From contig JAUUZA010000017.1 in assembly GCA_030590165.1 (NCBI GenBank), positions 1 to 13,707 on the forward strand: a DNA stretch of 13,707 nucleotides. Reading direction: 5' to 3'. This DNA is from Candidatus Altarchaeota archaeon. GTDB lineage: Archaea > SpSt-1190. The position numbers and the translations under genes were made by a program. This document shows positions 1,065 to 10,411 of the stretch, one piece after another (within the stretch, counting starts at the first letter, position 1; each line of letters starts with the position of its first letter). The notes under the pieces were generated by a model. The model made no database searches, was not told the DNA's origin, and worked only from the letters and a program-made list of their open reading frames with translations.

Positions 1065-3230
1065 GTGGCTTTTAAGATTAAAAAGGCGAGTAGAAAGAAG
1101 AAAACTCAAAATGCCAGTCTAGTCTTAAAAAATATTTTAAAACGAATCAGAAGGGGCCTTAACTCAAAAATAAAAAATAAATTAATGAAAAAAGCTAAGG
1201 AAATGAATGTTTCTTTAACAAATACTGATATAGAAAAAGCTGTAGAATTTGAAATCAATAAACTCCTCGTCCAAGAAAAAGCTTCAATTGAAAAAGCGGC
1301 AGTTCAAATTATGAAAAATCCGGAAATGTCTGATGCAGCAGTTGGTTCCATACTCAGTAAAATTGAAAACAGACTTGGTCAAATTGAAAGTGGTATGATT
1401 CCTTCACCATTAATGAATGTCCCATCTGGAAAACAAATGCCTATTGAAACTGATATTGGTGGAAAAAAACTAAGTCATAAAATAAATGCACAAATTCAAA
1501 TAGATAAACCAAAAATTGGAACAAATCTTTCTGCTAAAAATGAAGGGGGTAGATATATGGTACCATATGGATACATGGCACCAATGTTTAATCAAATGAC
1601 AGGACCACAAATAATTGAAAAAGTCCAAGAACTCTACCATGTTCCTTTTGAAGCGGGAGCTAAATTAAAACAAAAAATCAGAGAAACTTATCCTTTAATT
1701 CCTGAAAATCCAAAACAAGGTGAAAAAGTTTCGGCGTGGGCATATATTCACTGGGAACAAAAAAGCAAGGAATTAATTTATGAATTAGTTGAACCTAAAC
1801 TTTCCAAATTTGAGAAACAATTATTAGACAAACTAGAAGATAAATTAGAAGAAAAATTGGACATTCTTTTCGTTCCAAAAGGTAAGGGAAAACATAAAAC
1901 TTACTTACGTAAAAAGATTAAAGAAGTCGTAAACCTTTTTGGTTGGAAAATGAGTCAAGAGACTGCAAGTAAAATTGAATATTATGCCTTCAGAGATTTT
2001 ATTGGATTTGGAAAAATTGAGGCATTAATGCACGATCAAAATATTGAAGATATCAGTTGTGACGGAGTAAATATTCCTTTGTATATCTTCCATCGAAAAC
2101 CAGAATATAACCAGATGAAAACAAATATTTACTTCACTGATAAAGAAGAACTTGATAGTTTTGCAATAAGACTCGCACAAAAATCAGGGAGAAGTATTTC
2201 AGTTGCGGCCCCTTTATTGGACGCATCATTACCTGACGGTTCACGTCTTCAATGTACTCTTGGAAGTGATATTGCAAGACGCGGAAGTAATTTTACAATT
2301 CGTAAATTTTTGAAAGAACCTTTAACTCCTCCAAAATTAGTTGACTTTGGAACTTCCAGTTCACTCGCACTTGCATATATTTGGATGTGTGTCGAATATG
2401 GAAAAAGTATTTTAGTTTCAGGAACAACTGCCACTGGAAAAACTTCATTTTTAAATGCAATTAGTTTATTCATAAGACCCGAACTAAAAGTAGTTTCAAT
2501 TGAAGATACAGCCGAACTAATGCTTTCTTTACCAAACTGGGTTCCTCATGTTGCAAGACAGGGATATGGAGGAAAAGAGTACGGTTCTGTTGATATGTTT
2601 GCACTATTGAAAGCATCTCTCAGACAAAGACCCGACTATGTAATAGTAGGAGAAGTTAGGGGTGCTGAAGCAAGTGTAATGTTTCAAGGTATGGCAACCG
2701 GCCACCCTGCATTAGCCACCATCCACGCCGACTCTTTACAAAGATTAGTTGACAGATTAACAACACCACCAATTAATTTAAGCGCAGCCCTTATGGAAAA
2801 TCTTGACATAGTTATATTTTTAGTGAGAACAAAAACAGAAGGAAAATTCATAAGACGAATAAATCGAGTTTATGAAATTGCAGGAGTGAATGTTCGAGAC
2901 TCAAAAATAATTCCAAATAAACTCTTTGAATGGGACCCTGTAAAAGATGAAATAAACCATACTGGAAAAAGCCTCATCCTAAAAAAGATTTCAGATTTTA
3001 AGGGAATCAAATATGAAGTTGTATTCAAAGAAATTGAAAGACGTTCACTTTTTATTGATTGGTTAAAAACCAATAATATTTTCAATTTTACTCAATTCAA
3101 CCAGTGGATTGCTTCATACTATGCAGAACCAGATAAAGTAATGGAACGAGTGATAAATGATGTCAGACGAAAACTTCAAACAAAAAACCACAAAGTGGGC
3201 AATGAAAAACTTCACGGGTCTGGCAAATAA
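1065..3230 (+). CDS. Type II/IV secretion ATPase, archaeal FlaI/TadA/VirB11-like
   Basis: This 721-residue cytoplasmic ATPase would power assembly of a pilus-like filament. Walker A (GTTATGKTS) begins at residue 453. An Asp-box-like SIEDTAEL follows, then the Walker B region VIVGEVRG with E530, then the His box GHPALATIHAD (H547, H554). The N-terminal core domain with FGKIEALM and DISCDG precedes the motor domain. The C-terminal ~110 residues (FEWDP, a GKS segment, then a helical region) match the usual end of archaeal PilT/FlaI-type ATPases. The protein is long because of a ~300-residue N-terminal region that starts very lysine/arginine rich and continues as charged helices. The start is GTG, apparently leaderless. 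Its 3' end overlaps the next gene by about 74 bases. It belongs to the broad family, but which filament it serves is inferred from the neighbours. Confidence 0.93.
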   Translation: MAFKIKKASRKKKTQNASLVLKNILKRIRRGLNSKIKNKLMKKAKEMNVSLTNTDIEKAVEFEINKLLVQEKASIEKAAVQIMKNPEMSDAAVGSILSKIENRLGQIESGMIPSPLMNVPSGKQMPIETDIGGKKLSHKINAQIQIDKPKIGTNLSAKNEGGRYMVPYGYMAPMFNQMTGPQIIEKVQELYHVPFEAGAKLKQKIRETYPLIPENPKQGEKVSAWAYIHWEQKSKELIYELVEPKLSKFEKQLLDKLEDKLEEKLDILFVPKGKGKHKTYLRKKIKEVVNLFGWKMSQETASKIEYYAFRDFIGFGKIEALMHDQNIEDISCDGVNIPLYIFHRKPEYNQMKTNIYFTDKEELDSFAIRLAQKSGRSISVAAPLLDASLPDGSRLQCTLGSDIARRGSNFTIRKFLKEPLTPPKLVDFGTSSSLALAYIWMCVEYGKSILVSGTTATGKTSFLNAISLFIRPELKVVSIEDTAELMLSLPNWVPHVARQGYGGKEYGSVDMFALLKASLRQRPDYVIVGEVRGAEASVMFQGMATGHPALATIHADSLQRLVDRLTTPPINLSAALMENLDIVIFLVRTKTEGKFIRRINRVYEIAGVNVRDSKIIPNKLFEWDPVKDEINHTGKSLILKKISDFKGIKYEVVFKEIERRSLFIDWLKTNNIFNFTQFNQWIASYYAEPDKVMERVINDVRRKLQTKNHKVGNEKLHGSGK

Positions 3231-4032
3231 TCTAGGCCTTATTGAAACTATGAAAGTTTCAATGAAGAAATCAGGAATACCCATGACAAGTGATGAATAT
3301 TCTTCCCTTCTTCTGGCTGCTGCTCTAATCATTCCACTTGGCCTTGCATTTCTAATTTCATTAATTCTTATGATTCTTGGAACTGATTTGATTATGTTAA
3401 TCCCATATTTCACTATAATTTTTGTTGTATTAGCCTCTTTAATTATGGTTATTGGCTACCTTTATCCGGGAATGAAAATGTCCGACATAAAAAAAGATAT
3501 TATGAATAATCTACCTTTTTCAACTATTTATTTAACAACCTTATCTGGGTCAGGAATGAATGCAGTTCAAATGTTTAAAATCTTAGGCCATTTTAGTGAA
3601 TTCGGGGAAGTCAGTAAAGCCTCTCAAAAAATTGTGAGAGACGTAGAACTTCTTGGTGTAGATATTGCAACTGCATTGGAAAAAGCAGCTGAACGAACCC
3701 CAAGTTCACAACTTCGTGAATTATTTTGGGGAATGCGTAGTACAATGACAACGGGTGGAAACTTAAATAATTTCTTAATGGAAAAATCCCAAAGTTATAT
3801 GTCGGATTACAGACGCTTCCTAGATAAATTTGTTGATCAGATGTCAATACTAATGGAAGTTTATATCACAGCTGTAATTGTAGGTTCAATCTTTTTCATT
3901 ATCATGGGAGTAATCTTGAGTCTTATGGGTGGAGGTCAACCCTTAGCAATGGTAAGACTCTTAGTATACATCGGGATACCGATGTTATCAATAATGTTTA
4001 TGATAATAATTGCAGGGATGAGTCCGGAGTGA
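3157..4032 (+). CDS. TadC/FlaJ-like membrane platform protein (type II secretion system F domain), first copy
   Basis: This 291-residue inner-membrane platform protein is predicted to be the partner turned by the upstream ATPase. Two hydrophobic segments (about residues 50-73 and 75-104) precede a cytoplasmic helical F domain (about 117-230, with NNLPFSTIYLTTLSGSG and a GGNLNNFL turn). Two more membrane segments follow (about 233-256 and 264-288). The C-terminus is short. Tandem ATGs at 3157 and 3160 follow a GTGAT element (3150-3154) that can pair with archaeal 16S rRNA. The spacing favours 3160 slightly. Either start leaves a ~70-base overlap with the ATPase gene; a later ATG at 3202 would shorten it to 29 bases. 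Archaeal Tad/pilus loci commonly carry two such proteins, as here. Confidence 0.9.
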   Translation: MMSDENFKQKTTKWAMKNFTGLANNLGLIETMKVSMKKSGIPMTSDEYSSLLLAAALIIPLGLAFLISLILMILGTDLIMLIPYFTIIFVVLASLIMVIGYLYPGMKMSDIKKDIMNNLPFSTIYLTTLSGSGMNAVQMFKILGHFSEFGEVSKASQKIVRDVELLGVDIATALEKAAERTPSSQLRELFWGMRSTMTTGGNLNNFLMEKSQSYMSDYRRFLDKFVDQMSILMEVYITAVIVGSIFFIIMGVILSLMGGGQPLAMVRLLVYIGIPMLSIMFMIIIAGMSPE

Positions 4033-4042: not shown

Positions 4043-5143
4043 ATGAATTCAATAAAATTTTCAATTATTTCTACGATTACTTTAATTATAATTACCTCTT
4101 CACTATACGGATTTGAACTTTCAAAAATTTTTCCAATTCTCCCTATTATTATCTTTATTGGGGCAATGCCTTATTTAATTAAAACATATTTAAAATATAC
4201 TGAAATTAAATCAATGGAAGTTGTTTTTCCTGAATTTTTAAGAAATATTTCGGAATCTCAGAAGAGTGGTATTACAATTACTCAGGCCATAACAAACTCA
4301 ATCAAAATTGATTATGGTGTTTTCTCAAAAGAAGTAAAAAAAATGGCAGTTCAAATTAGTTGGGGTATCCCCTTACCTAATGTACTTGAAAAATTTTCAC
4401 AAAGAGTGAAACAAAGTTCTTTTTTAAAAAGAAGTGTTGCAATTATTCTAGAGGCACATAGAAGTGGAGGGGACATAGCACAAGTTATGGAACGTGTTGC
4501 TGAAAGTTCACGAATGATTAAAGATTTAGAGGCTGAAAGAAAGAGCAAATTTAATCAACAACTTCTAGTAATGTATGCCATATATTTAATTTTTATTGTA
4601 ATTATTCTTTCATTAAATAAAATTCTTTTACCTATGTTTGCACTTTCATCAGGGCAAGATGTTGGAGGTGTTGCAATATCTATGGGGACTATTGACCCCA
4701 ATTTTTATAGAACAATATTCCAACACATGATTTTAATTCAAGCCGTCTTTGCAGGTTTAATAGCAGGACAAGTTGGCGAAGGTTCAGTTGTTGCAGGAAT
4801 AAAACATAGTGCCATAATGTTAGCAATTGGTTCACTCGCTTTTGTATTCTTCCTCGCACCACAAAGTATACAAATTACTGTTGAATCTAATTATGATATT
4901 TATCCTCCAAATTCATTATATTCCCTAGAAGGTTTTGTATTAACAACAGATAGGTCTCCTATTTCTGGAGCAGATGTTGAAATAAATATATTAGACACAA
5001 GTTACCAAACTACAACTGATAATTTTGGTCTCTTTTCTTATGAAATAATTTTACCCTCCCAAACAGGTCTTCACGAAATAAAAATATCTGCAGAATCCAA
5101 AGAAGGAAAGGGAAACCACAAATTGGAGGTGTCTGTAGGTTGA
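4043..5143 (+). CDS. TadC/FlaJ-like membrane platform protein, second copy, with a C-terminal extracytoplasmic beta domain
   Basis: This 366-residue protein has two N-terminal membrane segments (about residues 4-22 and 28-48) and a cytoplasmic F domain (about 63-170, starting FPEFLRNISESQKSG and including HRSGGDIAQVMERV). Three further membrane segments follow at about 174-199, 229-246 and 256-273. The last ~93 residues are unusual. After the final membrane segment comes a soluble, beta-rich stretch (LEGFVLTTDRSPISGADVEI, then TTTDNFGLFSYEI) that reads like a carboxypeptidase-regulatory-like or CNA-B-like domain. Five membrane segments with a cytoplasmic F domain put this tail outside the cell. 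A strong ribosome binding site at 4031-4038 supports the start. It is encoded 10 bases after the first copy and overlaps the next gene by four bases (TTGA). Confidence 0.88.
   Translation: MNSIKFSIISTITLIIITSSLYGFELSKIFPILPIIIFIGAMPYLIKTYLKYTEIKSMEVVFPEFLRNISESQKSGITITQAITNSIKIDYGVFSKEVKKMAVQISWGIPLPNVLEKFSQRVKQSSFLKRSVAIILEAHRSGGDIAQVMERVAESSRMIKDLEAERKSKFNQQLLVMYAIYLIFIVIILSLNKILLPMFALSSGQDVGGVAISMGTIDPNFYRTIFQHMILIQAVFAGLIAGQVGEGSVVAGIKHSAIMLAIGSLAFVFFLAPQSIQITVESNYDIYPPNSLYSLEGFVLTTDRSPISGADVEINILDTSYQTTTDNFGLFSYEIILPSQTGLHEIKISAESKEGKGNHKLEVSVG
5125..5131 (+). promoter_or_regulatory. Ribosome binding site deciding a TTG start
   Basis: GGAGGTG lies eight bases before the TTG at 5140. There is no nearby in-frame ATG at the start of the signal peptide, so this strong site is the reason to accept the rare TTG as the start of the cysteine-rich gene. 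Confidence 0.65.
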
Positions 5144-5874
5144 AAAGCCTCTTCTTTTTTTTCTTAATTATTTCTGTCTTTGCAGTTTGTGGGGATAGAC
5201 TTTGTGAAACTTCAGAAATTGGAAATTGTATTGATTGTTCAACAATAAATACTAATTATGTTTGTGACCAATTCCCAAATAGTATCCCTTCTTATGATCC
5301 TGATTGTAATACAACTGTCAGTCAAACTTGTTATGACAGTGAATTCACTTATTCAGACGGAAGAGGAACTTCCTGCTTTCCTGGTAATTGCACTGAAGGT
5401 GTTGGTTGTACTTCTTCTTGTTCAATAGACACACATTGTTCATCAAACTTTTGTATTTCTAATACATGCGAAAAAACCTGTGATAATTGCAACATAACTG
5501 CAACATACGATGTTCAAGCTCTCGGAACTACTATTTATTTTGGTCAACCAACTTTCGTAAGTTTTAGAGTGAATAGAAATGGTGGAACCTCCCCAGTTGC
5601 AATTTCAGCAAGAGGGCCTTGTACCTTAAATTACACAAGCTCTTTAACACTAGGGTCGTATGGGATAGTAGTTGTTCGTATTGATAACTGTAAATTTAAG
5701 GGGGTAAGTAGTATTGAATTGACCGCAGGAAGTGCTAAGGGAACAGTACATTTCCTAAGTTATCCTACTTTAATGTACTCAATTGGAGACATGCCAAAAA
5801 GTGGTGTAGGGTCAGCATCGATGTCATCAAAAATGAATGCAATTCCTTTGGAGGTTAAAACATGGGTAAATTAA
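5140..5874 (+). CDS. Secreted cysteine-rich protein, operon-encoded
   Basis: This 244-residue protein starts at TTG 5140, overlapping the TGA stop of the gene before it. Residues 3-15 are a hydrophobic signal sequence, and the likely mature N-terminus is at about 15-17 (VFA then VCGD). Sixteen cysteines fall between residues 17 and 117. They include CGDRLC followed by NC..DC, a pattern seen in small archaeal and bacterial cysteine-rich surface modules, and a second CSxxxxC-type cluster (CSIDTHCSSNFC). Two further cysteines lie in the C-terminal part, which is beta-rich and Ig-like (about 120-210). Such a cysteine density implies extracellular disulphides. Its place directly after the platform proteins suggests a filament tip, adhesin or assembly component; this is inference. 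I do not recognise a named family. Confidence 0.8.
   Translation: MKSLFFFFLIISVFAVCGDRLCETSEIGNCIDCSTINTNYVCDQFPNSIPSYDPDCNTTVSQTCYDSEFTYSDGRGTSCFPGNCTEGVGCTSSCSIDTHCSSNFCISNTCEKTCDNCNITATYDVQALGTTIYFGQPTFVSFRVNRNGGTSPVAISARGPCTLNYTSSLTLGSYGIVVVRIDNCKFKGVSSIELTAGSAKGTVHFLSYPTLMYSIGDMPKSGVGSASMSSKMNAIPLEVKTWVN
5850..5856 (+). promoter_or_regulatory. Ribosome binding site for the class III pilin-like gene
   Basis: GGAGGTT lies five bases before the ATG at 5862, inside the end of the cysteine-rich gene. It fixes the pilin-like start and indicates coupling between the two genes. Confidence 0.65.
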
Positions 5875-6473
5875 AAGGTCAAGCTTCTCCTGACTTTGCA
5901 ATGTCAGCAATGATATTTTCAACAGCAATTCTTTTCGTCTTTTTTCATATTTCCAGGACTTACTACACTAGGACTTGGGAAGTTTCACACCTTGAAAAAT
6001 CTGCAAGAGCTCAAAACTTAATTTTATTTTTAACAAGTGAAAATGGAAATTGGTCAGTAAATCCATTTGAAAGTGAAGCTATTGCATTTGGGGAAGGGGA
6101 AATAAATGAAACTCAACTCCAATATTTTTTCGGAATGCCTTATCAAACAGTTCAACATAAATTAAATTTCCCGCACGAATTTAAAATTGAAATTTGGAAA
6201 CTTCCGAGCATTGGAATAACTTCAGATGTGTCTGATTTTTATATAAATGAAACTGTTAAAATTAATTTTAAAACAAATGAAAATTGTAGCTTTTATATTG
6301 TAATGGTTGGAACCCAAGGAAGTACCGGAGTAAGTTATTGGAATACCTCAATAGGAAAATATCATGGTTTTAATTTTGAATTACAATCAGGTGTTTATTC
6401 TCTTCAAGCAATAGCAACAACAATAGATGGAAAATATGGTGCATATGAATCAACATTTAGGGTGGTCCAATGA
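5862..6473 (+). CDS. Type IV pilin-like protein with class III signal peptide
   Basis: This 203-residue protein begins MGKLKGQASPDFAMSAM: a short basic leader, a Gly6-Gln7 processing site and then a hydrophobic segment to about residue 28. That matches the archaeal class III (type IV prepilin-like) signal peptide, Q-x-S-x-E, with Asp11 in place of the usual Glu. Cleavage by a prepilin peptidase after Gly6 would leave a filament-competent N-terminal helix. The remainder (about 35-203) is beta-rich with Asn-x-Ser/Thr sequons and no obvious catalytic residues. The gene overlaps the cysteine-rich gene by 13 bases and the following gene by four (ATGA). Pilin-like behaviour is supported by the N-terminus and the motor genes upstream; whether it is a major or minor subunit cannot be told. 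Confidence 0.8.
   Translation: MGKLKGQASPDFAMSAMIFSTAILFVFFHISRTYYTRTWEVSHLEKSARAQNLILFLTSENGNWSVNPFESEAIAFGEGEINETQLQYFFGMPYQTVQHKLNFPHEFKIEIWKLPSIGITSDVSDFYINETVKINFKTNENCSFYIVMVGTQGSTGVSYWNTSIGKYHGFNFELQSGVYSLQAIATTIDGKYGAYESTFRVVQ
6461..6466 (+). promoter_or_regulatory. Ribosome binding site for the second pilin-like gene
   Basis: GGTGGT lies three bases before the ATG at 6470, which overlaps the previous stop as ATGA. It supports this start over any internal one. Confidence 0.45.
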
Positions 6474-7111
6474 TAAGAAGTGCAGAAGCAGTAATAGCAA
6501 GTGTTCTCATGTTAGGGACAGTCATTTACCTTTTCAATGTTCCAAAAACCCAAAGTAATGACCCAATTGAACAATATATTCGAAGTATTTTAGATAGTTA
6601 TTCTGATGTTGCTAAATTACTAGGAACAAAGGACCCTTACACCTTAAAATTACTTTTAGATGCCTCAATGCCAAATGGATATGACCAACGAATTGTAATT
6701 AATTATTTTAAGAACATAATTTCATATACGGGGATAGGTTCGGCTCCAAATGAATTTTACTTTCTCTTACCAGCACAAGGAACTTCAAGTTTACCTAATT
6801 CTGAAATGAAATCAAATTGGTTTCGTTCAGTTTTTAGAATAAAAAATTCAAGTCCAGAAATAATAAAAGGGGAAAAATCAATATCTGCAAGTTTATACAA
6901 ACCTATCCTTATTGAAGGTGGAACAAATCTTCCAATTGACCTTGACTCTGTAATTGTTTTCACTGATGATGAAAAACTTAATTCAACACTTACAACTTAT
7001 GAAGATTATTATGATCATACTATTGTCGGATTAATAGTCACTCTTGATATTGATGCAGGTGAAACAAAAAATTTATATGTATATTATTTGGTTGGTGATG
7101 ATTATGAATAA
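6470..7111 (+). CDS. N-terminally anchored, pilin-like surface protein of unknown function
   Basis: This 213-residue protein starts MIRSAEAVIASVLML, with a hydrophobic helix to about residue 24 and then an extracellular-looking soluble part. The Glu at position 6 within a hydrophobic N-terminal helix resembles mature type IV pilin N-termini, but there is no clear leader-plus-Gly processing site. It may therefore be a minor pilin-like subunit or a simple N-terminally anchored protein. The soluble part has a helical section (about 33-90) and a beta-rich C-terminal section ending in alternating hydrophobic strands. No cysteines and no catalytic motif are seen. The start overlaps the upstream stop by four bases, and its stop is overlapped by the DUF2341 gene start, so it is translated as part of the same operon. 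Confidence 0.7.
   Translation: MIRSAEAVIASVLMLGTVIYLFNVPKTQSNDPIEQYIRSILDSYSDVAKLLGTKDPYTLKLLLDASMPNGYDQRIVINYFKNIISYTGIGSAPNEFYFLLPAQGTSSLPNSEMKSNWFRSVFRIKNSSPEIIKGEKSISASLYKPILIEGGTNLPIDLDSVIVFTDDEKLNSTLTTYEDYYDHTIVGLIVTLDIDAGETKNLYVYYLVGDDYE
7094..7099 (+). promoter_or_regulatory. Ribosome binding site that fixes the DUF2341 gene start at 7104
   Basis: GGTGAT ends four bases before the ATG at 7104. An in-frame ATG exists further upstream at 7044, but starting there would place ~20 mixed residues before the signal peptide. The site and the signal peptide together favour 7104. Confidence 0.55.
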
Positions 7112-8693
7112 AAAATTAATTCTATTTTTGTTATTAATTCCATCAATGGCTTGGTGGAATACTAATTGGAATTATTCAAAATCGTTAACTGCAAATAAAG
7201 GGGTGTCTTTATTCACAGGTCAATTTAAATTAAACACTGAAACTTTAATTACTGCTGGAAAAGTTAAACATGATTGTGGTGATTTACGAATTATTGAAAG
7301 TAATTCAATAGCTTATTACTTAGTTGGTTGTAATAAAACTTATTCTCAAGTATTTTTTGATGTTGATTACAGTGGAAATGATTTTAACATGTATTATGGA
7401 AATCCTTCGGCGTCAAGTACTGCCACAACCAGCTTTTTCAGCTTTTACGACGGATTTTCTGGATATGTTGCAGGAAGCGACGGTTCCCCTACTTGGAGTA
7501 TTAAAACTGGAAGTTTTAATGTAAATTATACAAATAGTAGTTGGAGATATGTATTGAATACAAGTTCAGAATCTATTGCAACTGCATATACTCCTTCGGG
7601 GAATTTCACTGTTTTTGTAGAAACAAGTGACTCCGGAACTGGAAAACCAGGTATAATTTATAGTTATATTAATTCAACACATTATAGTGCAGTTTATTTG
7701 GACGGGACATCAGTCATGATACGTGAAAATATTTCATCTCGTTCACTTGGTTCATTCACTATTAATGATTTCAATCACATATTATTAGAAATTATTGATT
7801 CAACAGTCAATGTATATGTGAATGGAGATTCTAAAGGAAGTGGAATTTATTATCCCGGTTCAGTTGGATTATATGCTCTTCCTTCTTCATCATCTCAAAC
7901 CATTTATGATGAATTCATTATTCATAACAGTGATGAAGTAACTTGGTCACTTGGGTCGGAACAAAGTATTCCTGCCTTAACTTATGAATTTATTGGATCT
8001 GAAAATGCAAATATGCGAACTCTTATTGCTCATATGAATGAAGGAGAAAATTTAGTAAAATTTACACTCGAAACTCAAGAAATTACTGGAATCGTAGACA
8101 ATAATGAAGAAGCGTATTTAGATTGGGCATACATAAATTTCAACTCAAGTGGTTATTTTGTTAATAGTACTTTTTTTAAAATTGATGCTGATTCATTTAA
8201 TTATACACAAGGAGAATATCGCTTTGATTTAACTTATTCAAAAACAACAGCACAATACAAAAAATGGCATATAGTTCAATTTTTCAATGATTTCTCATCT
8301 ATTAAACACATAATTTTTATGACAGCCAATCAAAGTGGAACATATAGCCCAGACTTATTTCCTTGGACAAGTTGCACTGGTTATGTTAATACAACAGGAA
8401 ATGGAACCTGTTCATCAAATATGCATTCATCTGCAGGGATTTTCCATTTTGGAGATGTTGATTTTTGTGGTATTCATTACGGAAGAACCAATCCTTCAGA
8501 AATATATGACAATATAGACATGGTCAAGTTTGATAATTATAAAAAGGTTTTTTGGCAGTCATATGACGGATGCGACAAATTCACTGAAGAAACAAATTTA
8601 ATTTGTGGGGTCGATTTTTATAATTGTACTGCCACCAACACAAAACCTGCAAAAACATTATTTTATGTGAATGATGAACCACACAGTCTTTAA
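7104..8693 (+). CDS. Secreted DUF2341/concanavalin-like surface protein, N-terminal part of a broken frame
   Basis: This frame gives 529 residues from the ATG at 7104. It begins with a signal peptide (MNKKLILFLLLIPSMA) and the mature protein starts WWNTNWNYSKSLT, the hallmark opening of DUF2341 domains. The YYGNPSAS motif closes that domain near residue 110. A concanavalin/LamG-like beta sandwich follows (FYDGFSG to WSLGSEQ, about 115-290), then another beta-rich region and a cysteine-bearing segment (TSCTGYV, FCGIHYG, YDGCDKF, ICGVDFYNC). DUF2341 proteins are surface proteins often linked to glycan or solute binding. The frame ends at TAA 8691-8693, but the same frame resumes as clearly similar coding sequence after a second TAA at 8700-8702 and continues to 9257. 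The protein is therefore probably only the first three quarters of an original ~717-residue product. Confidence 0.78.
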   Translation: MNKKLILFLLLIPSMAWWNTNWNYSKSLTANKGVSLFTGQFKLNTETLITAGKVKHDCGDLRIIESNSIAYYLVGCNKTYSQVFFDVDYSGNDFNMYYGNPSASSTATTSFFSFYDGFSGYVAGSDGSPTWSIKTGSFNVNYTNSSWRYVLNTSSESIATAYTPSGNFTVFVETSDSGTGKPGIIYSYINSTHYSAVYLDGTSVMIRENISSRSLGSFTINDFNHILLEIIDSTVNVYVNGDSKGSGIYYPGSVGLYALPSSSSQTIYDEFIIHNSDEVTWSLGSEQSIPALTYEFIGSENANMRTLIAHMNEGENLVKFTLETQEITGIVDNNEEAYLDWAYINFNSSGYFVNSTFFKIDADSFNYTQGEYRFDLTYSKTTAQYKKWHIVQFFNDFSSIKHIIFMTANQSGTYSPDLFPWTSCTGYVNTTGNGTCSSNMHSSAGIFHFGDVDFCGIHYGRTNPSEIYDNIDMVKFDNYKKVFWQSYDGCDKFTEETNLICGVDFYNCTATNTKPAKTLFYVNDEPHSL

Positions 8694-8702
8694 CGTATTT
8701 AA
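8691..8702 (+). other. Two in-frame TAA codons interrupting one coding frame
   Basis: TAA at 8691-8693 and TAA at 8700-8702 lie in the same frame, with two codons between them. Coding-quality sequence continues in that frame on both sides. A one-base loss in the T-run at about 8688-8690 plus a one-base gain near 8704-8706 would explain it. In the shifted frame the intervening codons read T-Y-L-S, giving a smooth join to P-S-G-L-T-C. This could be real decay or an assembly or sequencing error. Confidence 0.7.
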
Positions 8703-9257
8703 GTTCCTTCTGGGCTTACTTGTAAAATTAATCAAGAAAGTTTTTCTGATTTAGTTGATTCATCAAAAATAAATAAAGGTTTAAATGATCTTGAATGTTA
8801 TGGCACAGGTAATTTAAGTTATTTTAGAATGTTCACTTCTCCCCCTTATGAAGCCACACGTTTCTTTAATGAAAAACCAGAAATATACCAAATAACTTTA
8901 ACTGGTCCTGAAACAAGGGGAAAATTAAATGTTTGTGGAGTTCCTATTTTTGGGAATCTCCTCCCATTTAAGTGTTCAGACACAAATATGTTTATTGAAG
9001 GTAACTTTAGTCAAGGACGCCATACTTTTTATGTCTTTAAAACTAAGAGTGAAAAAAGTTACAAAGACCCAAGTGGTGGACGTACCCTTTCAACAACAAT
9101 ACAACGAGTACAACCAATTGACCCACCACTTGCAGGTGCAAAAGAAATTGGGCCTCCAATAAATCCTCCAACCCATAACATTATCTCTTCAAGAAGAATA
9201 TTCTATTCATATGAAACAGCAGTCGAAATGGTGATTACAGCATGGAAAAACATCTAA
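8703..9257 (+). pseudogene. C-terminal part of the DUF2341 surface protein, separated by in-frame stops
   Basis: After the second TAA the frame of the DUF2341 gene stays open for about 184 codons (VPSGLTCKINQ onward) to TAA 9255-9257. The first ATG in it is at 8829, which would give an independent 142-residue protein, but the 42 codons before that ATG are equally protein-like. The ATG at 8829 also lacks a signal peptide and a clear ribosome binding site. The segment is beta-rich, with cysteines (LTC, LEC, NVCG, FKC) that probably pair among themselves or with those in the upstream part. A proline-rich linker follows (about 9111-9175), then a short hydrophobic-charged end. The end overlaps the next gene by 16 bases. 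If the upstream stops are errors this is not a separate gene; if real, it is a remnant. Confidence 0.65.
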
Positions 9258-10411
9258 AAGGTCAATTTTATGTCTTGGCATCCTTCATAGTAGGAATGTA
9301 TATTTTTTTCATACTTAAAATGTTCACTTCAACTACAACAAGTTTCCAAACTCCAGACATTCCACAAATAGCTTATGTTCACGATGCAATTCAAGACGCT
9401 ATTAATTCAGGCCACGGTATTTCCCTCGTTCTTGATTCACTAAGTTTTTTACCAGAACCAATAGGTGTCAGATGTAAATCGTGGGCAACAGAGGAAGGAA
9501 GTTGCAGTCTTAACATGGACGATTGGGCATGTGGAGTAAATGTTACTGTAATATATAGTGGAAAAAGTGAATTAGAAGCAACCGAAAATTTGTTTATACA
9601 AACCTTCGAAGTGAATGAATCACGAACCCCTATATCTATTTTTTCAAATGAAAGCACAAATTTATATAAAATAACTTCTGATGTTGGGCGTTCTTCCGGA
9701 ACAATTCAGGACACTTCAGGAAAAACAATTAAAGGTAAATGGACTGGAAACTCCTTAAGCTTCAGAGTGAATTTAGTAAAGAATCAAGTAAAAACAGTAT
9801 ATCTTTATCACACCTCGTCTGCCAGTCACGGTCTTTTTGAAGATGTTAGTATTCTGAATGATACTGGTTATGATGGAGAAACTCTTTATACAAATTTAAA
9901 TTCAAAAAGAGATACTGAATATTTTAGTTTGAGTGACTTAAGTGATTTAGGAGATAATGCAGGACCAAGTATGCTTTTCCTACCTGAGGTATATCCAATA
10001 AGTTATGGAACTAATTTATTAGAGTATGTTAAGGAGGGTGGAATTCTTGTTGCCCCACTTGGCTTATGTTTAAGTTCTGGGACTTGTCTCATTGGAAATT
10101 TAGAAGAAATTTCTACGAGTCATAGTGTTGAGGCCATTGGTGACCTAAGTTCACTTAATCCCTTAGACACAAACGGAAACTATTTTACAGATGCCGATGT
10201 TCCGTGGGTTGTTTATTCAAGCGGTGGTCTTAATAATAGTAGAAGCTTAATTGGAGCTTCTGCATATGGTGAGGGTTACGTTATCTTTGTGGGCAATTCA
10301 TCCATACTTAATAATTGGAGTCAGCTTGATGATTTCATTAATCTCCTACTTTCGTGGGGTCTTCCACCAGTTTCAACGACCATAATAAATTGTCCAGAAC
10401 AATGTCCCTAA
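9242..10411 (+). CDS. Large N-terminally anchored pilin-like surface protein with a glutamine-amidotransferase-like C-terminal region
   Basis: This 389-residue protein begins MEKHLKGQFYVLASFIVGMY, a basic leader with Gly7-Gln8 and a hydrophobic helix to about residue 27. It resembles the class III signal peptide of the pilin-like gene at 5862 but lacks the acidic residue at +5. A beta-rich middle region (about 90-215) follows. From about 241 to 375 the sequence alternates strands and helices (SMLFLPEVYP, LLEYVKEGGILVAPLG, EGYVIFVGNSS), like ThuA- or DUF4350-type glutamine-amidotransferase-like folds. A catalytic Cys-His-Glu triad is not evident. Seven cysteines suggest disulphides and an extracellular location. 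The start overlaps the previous frame by 16 bases. This is the last gene of the operon; it is followed by a T-run at 10435-10440. Confidence 0.75.
   Translation: MEKHLKGQFYVLASFIVGMYIFFILKMFTSTTTSFQTPDIPQIAYVHDAIQDAINSGHGISLVLDSLSFLPEPIGVRCKSWATEEGSCSLNMDDWACGVNVTVIYSGKSELEATENLFIQTFEVNESRTPISIFSNESTNLYKITSDVGRSSGTIQDTSGKTIKGKWTGNSLSFRVNLVKNQVKTVYLYHTSSASHGLFEDVSILNDTGYDGETLYTNLNSKRDTEYFSLSDLSDLGDNAGPSMLFLPEVYPISYGTNLLEYVKEGGILVAPLGLCLSSGTCLIGNLEEISTSHSVEAIGDLSSLNPLDTNGNYFTDADVPWVVYSSGGLNNSRSLIGASAYGEGYVIFVGNSSILNNWSQLDDFINLLLSWGLPPVSTTIINCPEQCP

Follow-up and report, generated by a model that had tools for sequence, protein, structure and literature searches.

A DUF2341 gene broken by two nonsense codons in an archaeal pilus locus looks like an assembly error or a recent gene breakage rather than an on/off switch

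Introduction

How should two stop codons in the middle of an otherwise open surface-protein frame be understood? The question is raised by a 13,707-nucleotide stretch of DNA from a Candidatus Altarchaeota archaeon (contig JAUUZA010000017.1), referred to here as the window and analysed over its whole length. At positions 7104-9257 of its forward strand, a frame encoding a DUF2341 protein is interrupted in a manner that could reflect a switch acting on an exposed protein, the loss of a gene, an unusual mode of translation, or a fault in the assembled sequence. Here we place the frame in its locus, compare it with its homologues, estimate the age of the break, and ask how often similar lesions occur elsewhere in the same genome.

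Results

The interrupted frame lies within a cluster of genes on the forward strand. The cluster includes a secretion ATPase of the type IV pilus/archaellum type (1065-3230; T2SSE), whose best NCBIfam match is FlaI-like and falls below the cut-off of that model, followed by two TadC/FlaJ-like membrane proteins (3157-4032 and 4043-5143; both T2SSF). A Cys-rich, secreted-looking protein (5140-5874), a small protein with an N-terminal hydrophobic segment (5862-6473), and a further small protein whose gene overlaps the start of the DUF2341 gene (6470-7111) are all kept in the cluster by synteny; the two small proteins may be minor-pilin-like, the first having no family match above cut-off and the second no family match. 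The next conserved gene (9242-10411) begins within the 3' end of the DUF2341 frame, as it does in G005, the relative with the closest homologue, and the gene order of the cluster is the same in G005, G004 and G002. Judged by its gene content, with a secretion ATPase, two TadC/FlaJ proteins and putative pilin-like genes, this is an archaeal type IV pilus locus. Beyond its membrane part, the second TadC-like protein ends in a carboxypeptidase-regulatory-like (Ig-like) domain (CarboxypepD_reg, E 0.0002, below cut-off), and the homologue on L169 seemingly does likewise.

Translation of 7104-9257 gives 529 codons, a TAA at 8691-8693, the residues Arg-Ile, a second TAA at 8700-8702, and 184 further codons before the stop at 9255-9257, which bears out the sequence-only reading that a single frame is broken by two TAA codons nine bases apart. 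The 5' part (7104-8693) has a GGTGAT-type ribosome site upstream of its start and a signal-peptide-like N-terminus; residues 57-131 match DUF2341 (PF10102) in Pfam with 27.3 bits against a curated cut-off of 23.4. Among homologues, those on L167 and L168 score 83.2 and 35.5 bits, and Pfam returned no DUF2341 match in that of G005, to which the 5' part is nevertheless 50% identical over its whole length. The 3' part (8703-9257; 184 codons) is matched in four further genomes of the family. Its 184 residues are 61% identical to G005 (E 2.9e-78), with 39% identity to G004, 27% to G002, and 49% to a fragment in G003, where the end of the gene alone is present on a 3-kb contig. The openness of this 3' frame is not due to chance, as every one of 20,000 base-shuffled 552-nt sequences contained a stop.

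In three other genera of the family the homologue occupies one uninterrupted frame of 739 (G005), 810 (G004) and 754 (G002) codons, counted from stop to stop, and each of these frames passes continuously across the junction. The two halves had been taken for one protein, and this comparison with intact homologues supports that view: 7104-9257 is one ordinary gene, whose product is a large surface protein with a DUF2341 domain that belongs to an archaeal type IV pilus system. The first start codon 3' of the stops is the ATG at 8829, 42 codons on, and there is no in-frame GTG or TTG between the second stop and this ATG. These 42 codons (8703-8828), earlier described as protein-like, are indeed so; they include two cysteines and are 71% identical to G005 at the amino acid level, which is above the rest of the gene. 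Their low third-position divergence (29%) was considered as an oddity and set aside, since stretches with values just as low are found elsewhere in the gene and in the second TadC gene. A low-confidence structure prediction of the read-through protein from three sequences gave a mean pLDDT of 30.

Two further similarities were noted. In a more distant Altiarchaeota MAG, a 594-aa protein (L169:16296-18080) occupies the same place in the pilus cluster; by eye, its C-terminus is similar to that of the window protein, but tblastn gave no match between the two. A second frame on the same G005 contig as the homologue, of 1248 codons, shows weak similarity to the DUF2341 part (G005:C2:23413-23661; L012, L014).

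The sequence around the stops aligns with G005 with no gap, ALSRMEIPSG in G005 standing opposite SL*RI*VPSG in the window, and this holds over a longer stretch (NDEPHSL*RI*VPSGLTCKIN in the window and NDKPGALSRMEIPSGFTCKIN in G005). The first TAA stands where G005 has Ser (TCA) and both G002 and G004 have Gly; the second stands where G005 has Glu (GAA), G004 Glu and G002 Tyr. Each stop is thus one substitution away from the G005 codon, and the Arg between them is conserved in the homologue alignment. Because the junction is gapless and this Arg is conserved, the lesion consists of two in-frame nonsense substitutions. The gapless alignment rules out a pair of frameshifts at the T-runs and contradicts the proposal of a one-base shift at a T-run followed by a shift back; the T-runs at the stops, 8689-8691 and 8698-8700, comprise only three bases each.

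To place these substitutions in context, we compared 626 kb of this genome with 832 kb of G005 by tblastn, which yielded 475 one-to-one alignments between genes and 125,000 codons; ORFs that by eye read as the antisense of genes, because TGA recurred in them and they were rich in Ser and Leu, were left out. Internal in-frame stops were found in the window gene and in five unrelated conserved genes, at positions that are sense codons in G005. The five are a PGM/PMM-like gene (L025:16146, GAA to TAA), AlaX (L020:1143, GAG to TAG), Memo (L080:12445, TAG), and two genes of unknown function (L084:12897 and L029:4354, both TAA). AlaX is whole in all five relatives where it was found. The reverse scan of G005, over about 122,000 aligned codons, yielded no convincing internal stop, one alignment (L137:4784-5719) being ambiguous near the N-terminus, and a sample of 34,000 codons of G004 yielded no case. 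Two further lesions were noted on one contig of this genome, a stop in CTP synthase within about 35 bases of the end of contig C56 (L029:1-60) and a frameshift in a TrmB-type regulator gene at about L029:11480.

Substitutions outnumber frameshifts among the lesions of this genome, as errors in a short-read consensus would give. All four of the stops with a clear one-step ancestor are G:C to T:A changes, a class that makes up 28% of possible nonsense paths; if all paths were equally likely this would arise by chance in about 0.6% of cases, for a class that was noticed after the fact. Oxidative DNA damage belongs to the same class. Across the genome, sense codons carried no sign of G:C to T:A errors or of a mutator: 976 such changes compare with 824 reverse changes, a skew no greater than that among transitions. 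As a separate observation, a gene for an HhH-GPD DNA glycosylase is present and seemingly split over two contig ends (G000:C40:47-286 and G000:C6:16-249).

The age of the break was estimated from residues of the 3' part that are unique to either branch in three-way comparisons. Counts for the window genome and for G005 were 14 and 18 with G004 as outgroup, 12 and 10 with G002, and 17 and 15 with G003, so that the window branch shows no surplus of changes, although a lesion of very recent date would not show in such counts. Of random substitutions in the 3' part, about 4.8% would create a stop, and from this fraction we infer that a few tens of neutral changes, or about 2% divergence, could pass such a relative-rate test unseen. 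Because the 3' part and the 42 codons are as conserved as in relatives, the lesion either arose very recently or does not exist in the living genome.

Discussion

Of the three causes that the sequence-only reading had put forward, two survive these comparisons: a recent pseudogene and an assembly error. At slightly better than an even chance, we favour errors of the consensus sequence over a genuine pseudogene, because isolated in-frame stops hit several unrelated conserved genes in this genome and not in its relatives. Such errors could arise from damaged or low-coverage DNA or from mixed strains, and the living cell would then make the whole DUF2341 protein. A study of DPANN archaea from hydrothermal-vent sediment (DPANN-HV) used MEGAHIT assembly of 100-bp reads (PMC8091004); the isolate name DPANNHV_H2 indicates short-read assembly of this kind for two of the relatives only. 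Two points weigh against consensus error: the lack of a genome-wide G:C to T:A excess means that there is no massive damage signature, and two independent errors nine bases apart in the interior of a contig are unlikely.

A genuine recent pseudogene, in which the population carries both nonsense mutations and the protein ends at residue 529, leaving the cell with a truncated tip protein or none, is a serious possibility, albeit one that falls short of an even chance. Both changes could then be a single multi-base mutation event, and stops that lie so close together with no other damage to the gene resemble one event. Pilus-tip genes may be dispensable in certain conditions, and the roughly 2% of neutral divergence that could escape the relative-rate test leaves room for a young lesion. 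However, neither the 3' part nor the 42 untranslatable codons show acceleration or further decay, and comparable stops occur here in housekeeping genes, including AlaX and the PGM/PMM-like gene.

The remaining readings (a split gene, readthrough and phase variation) together take only a small share of the probability. It is improbable that the gene naturally encodes two separate proteins, with translation of the second beginning at the ATG at 8829. A 142-aa ORF (8829-9257) does follow the stops as a mechanical translation, and overlapping genes are usual in this operon; however, this ATG has no ribosome-binding site, whereas GGAG or GGTG precedes most genes within the operon, and reinitiation at this position was rejected on that ground. 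A second protein starting there would also forgo the 42 conserved codons with their two cysteines. The gene is undivided in every relative compared, with whole copies in G005, G004 and G002 and no separate downstream gene.

Programmed readthrough or a reassigned UAA, with both stops decoded and a full-length protein made, is very unlikely. The frame goes on under apparent constraint, and three of this genome's internal stops with clear homology fall at Glu codons; against this, TAA is the terminator in 273 out of 459 long ORFs from an initial sample of the genome, and relatives carry sense codons at both sites (Ser/Gly and Glu/Tyr). Neither a TTA nor a CTA anticodon was present among the tRNAs detected, and ARAGORN listed no suppressor among 42 tRNAs in 626 kb; recoding is thus accompanied here neither by a matching tRNA nor by stops conserved in homologues. 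We give a similarly slim chance to a weaker form of this idea, in which several in-frame UAA and UAG codons in various genes of this small archaeon, three of them at former Glu positions, are tolerated through unusual, low-level readthrough and the tip protein would exist as a minor full-length and a major truncated form.

Least likely of all is the phase-variable silencing by slippage at a T-run that was first suggested: phase variation frequently targets surface genes in bacteria, but here the frame was never shifted, so slippage or indels cannot switch the gene, and the T-runs at the stops have three bases. There is no homopolymer longer than three bases within 20 bases of the stops, Tandem Repeats Finder reported nothing at the site, and the repeats near the stops are short ones that A+T-rich DNA could well produce by chance. 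The gene is single-copy, with no silent or second copy found in the genome, and no hypermutable repeat tract shifts its frame.

Taken together, these results point to an ordinary assembly error or to a gene that was broken recently, and not to an on/off switch. There is a general caution in this, in that an apparent surface-gene switch turned out to be two nonsense substitutions in a genome that has others in housekeeping genes; with such stray stops present, gene loss or phase variation should not be deduced from the assembly unless the reads are consulted.

Compared with the homopolymer-based phase-variable surface genes of bacteria, the window gene is alike in being a surface-protein gene with a broken frame; unlike them, it has no long repeat tract or frameshift, and has nonsense substitutions instead. 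Where intact, the family is a conserved component of the pilus locus in a group of DPANN/Altiarchaeota-like archaea, a family about which little is known, and a tip protein there would be relevant to how cells attach or take up DNA. Analogy with PilY adhesins has led to the prediction that the DUF2341 proteins encoded in archaeal pilus loci sit at the tip (PMC4858521), and MMJJ_08210, a DUF2341 protein of the Methanococcus maripaludis pilus locus, received repeated transposon insertions in a screen for transformation-defective mutants (PMC10133366). On the basis of this prediction and this screen we infer the role of the window protein, which by analogy is probably a pilus-tip protein. It differs from the archaeal pilus-locus DUF2341 proteins (PMC4858521) in the two nonsense codons of its frame and in its low similarity outside the family. 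Like them, it is a large, secreted, Cys-bearing protein with DUF2341 near the N-terminus, and its gene has as neighbours those for a secretion ATPase and two TadC-like proteins, together with small pilin-like genes. By description, it is also like MMJJ_08210 (PMC10133366) in that a DUF2341 domain is encoded among pilus genes.
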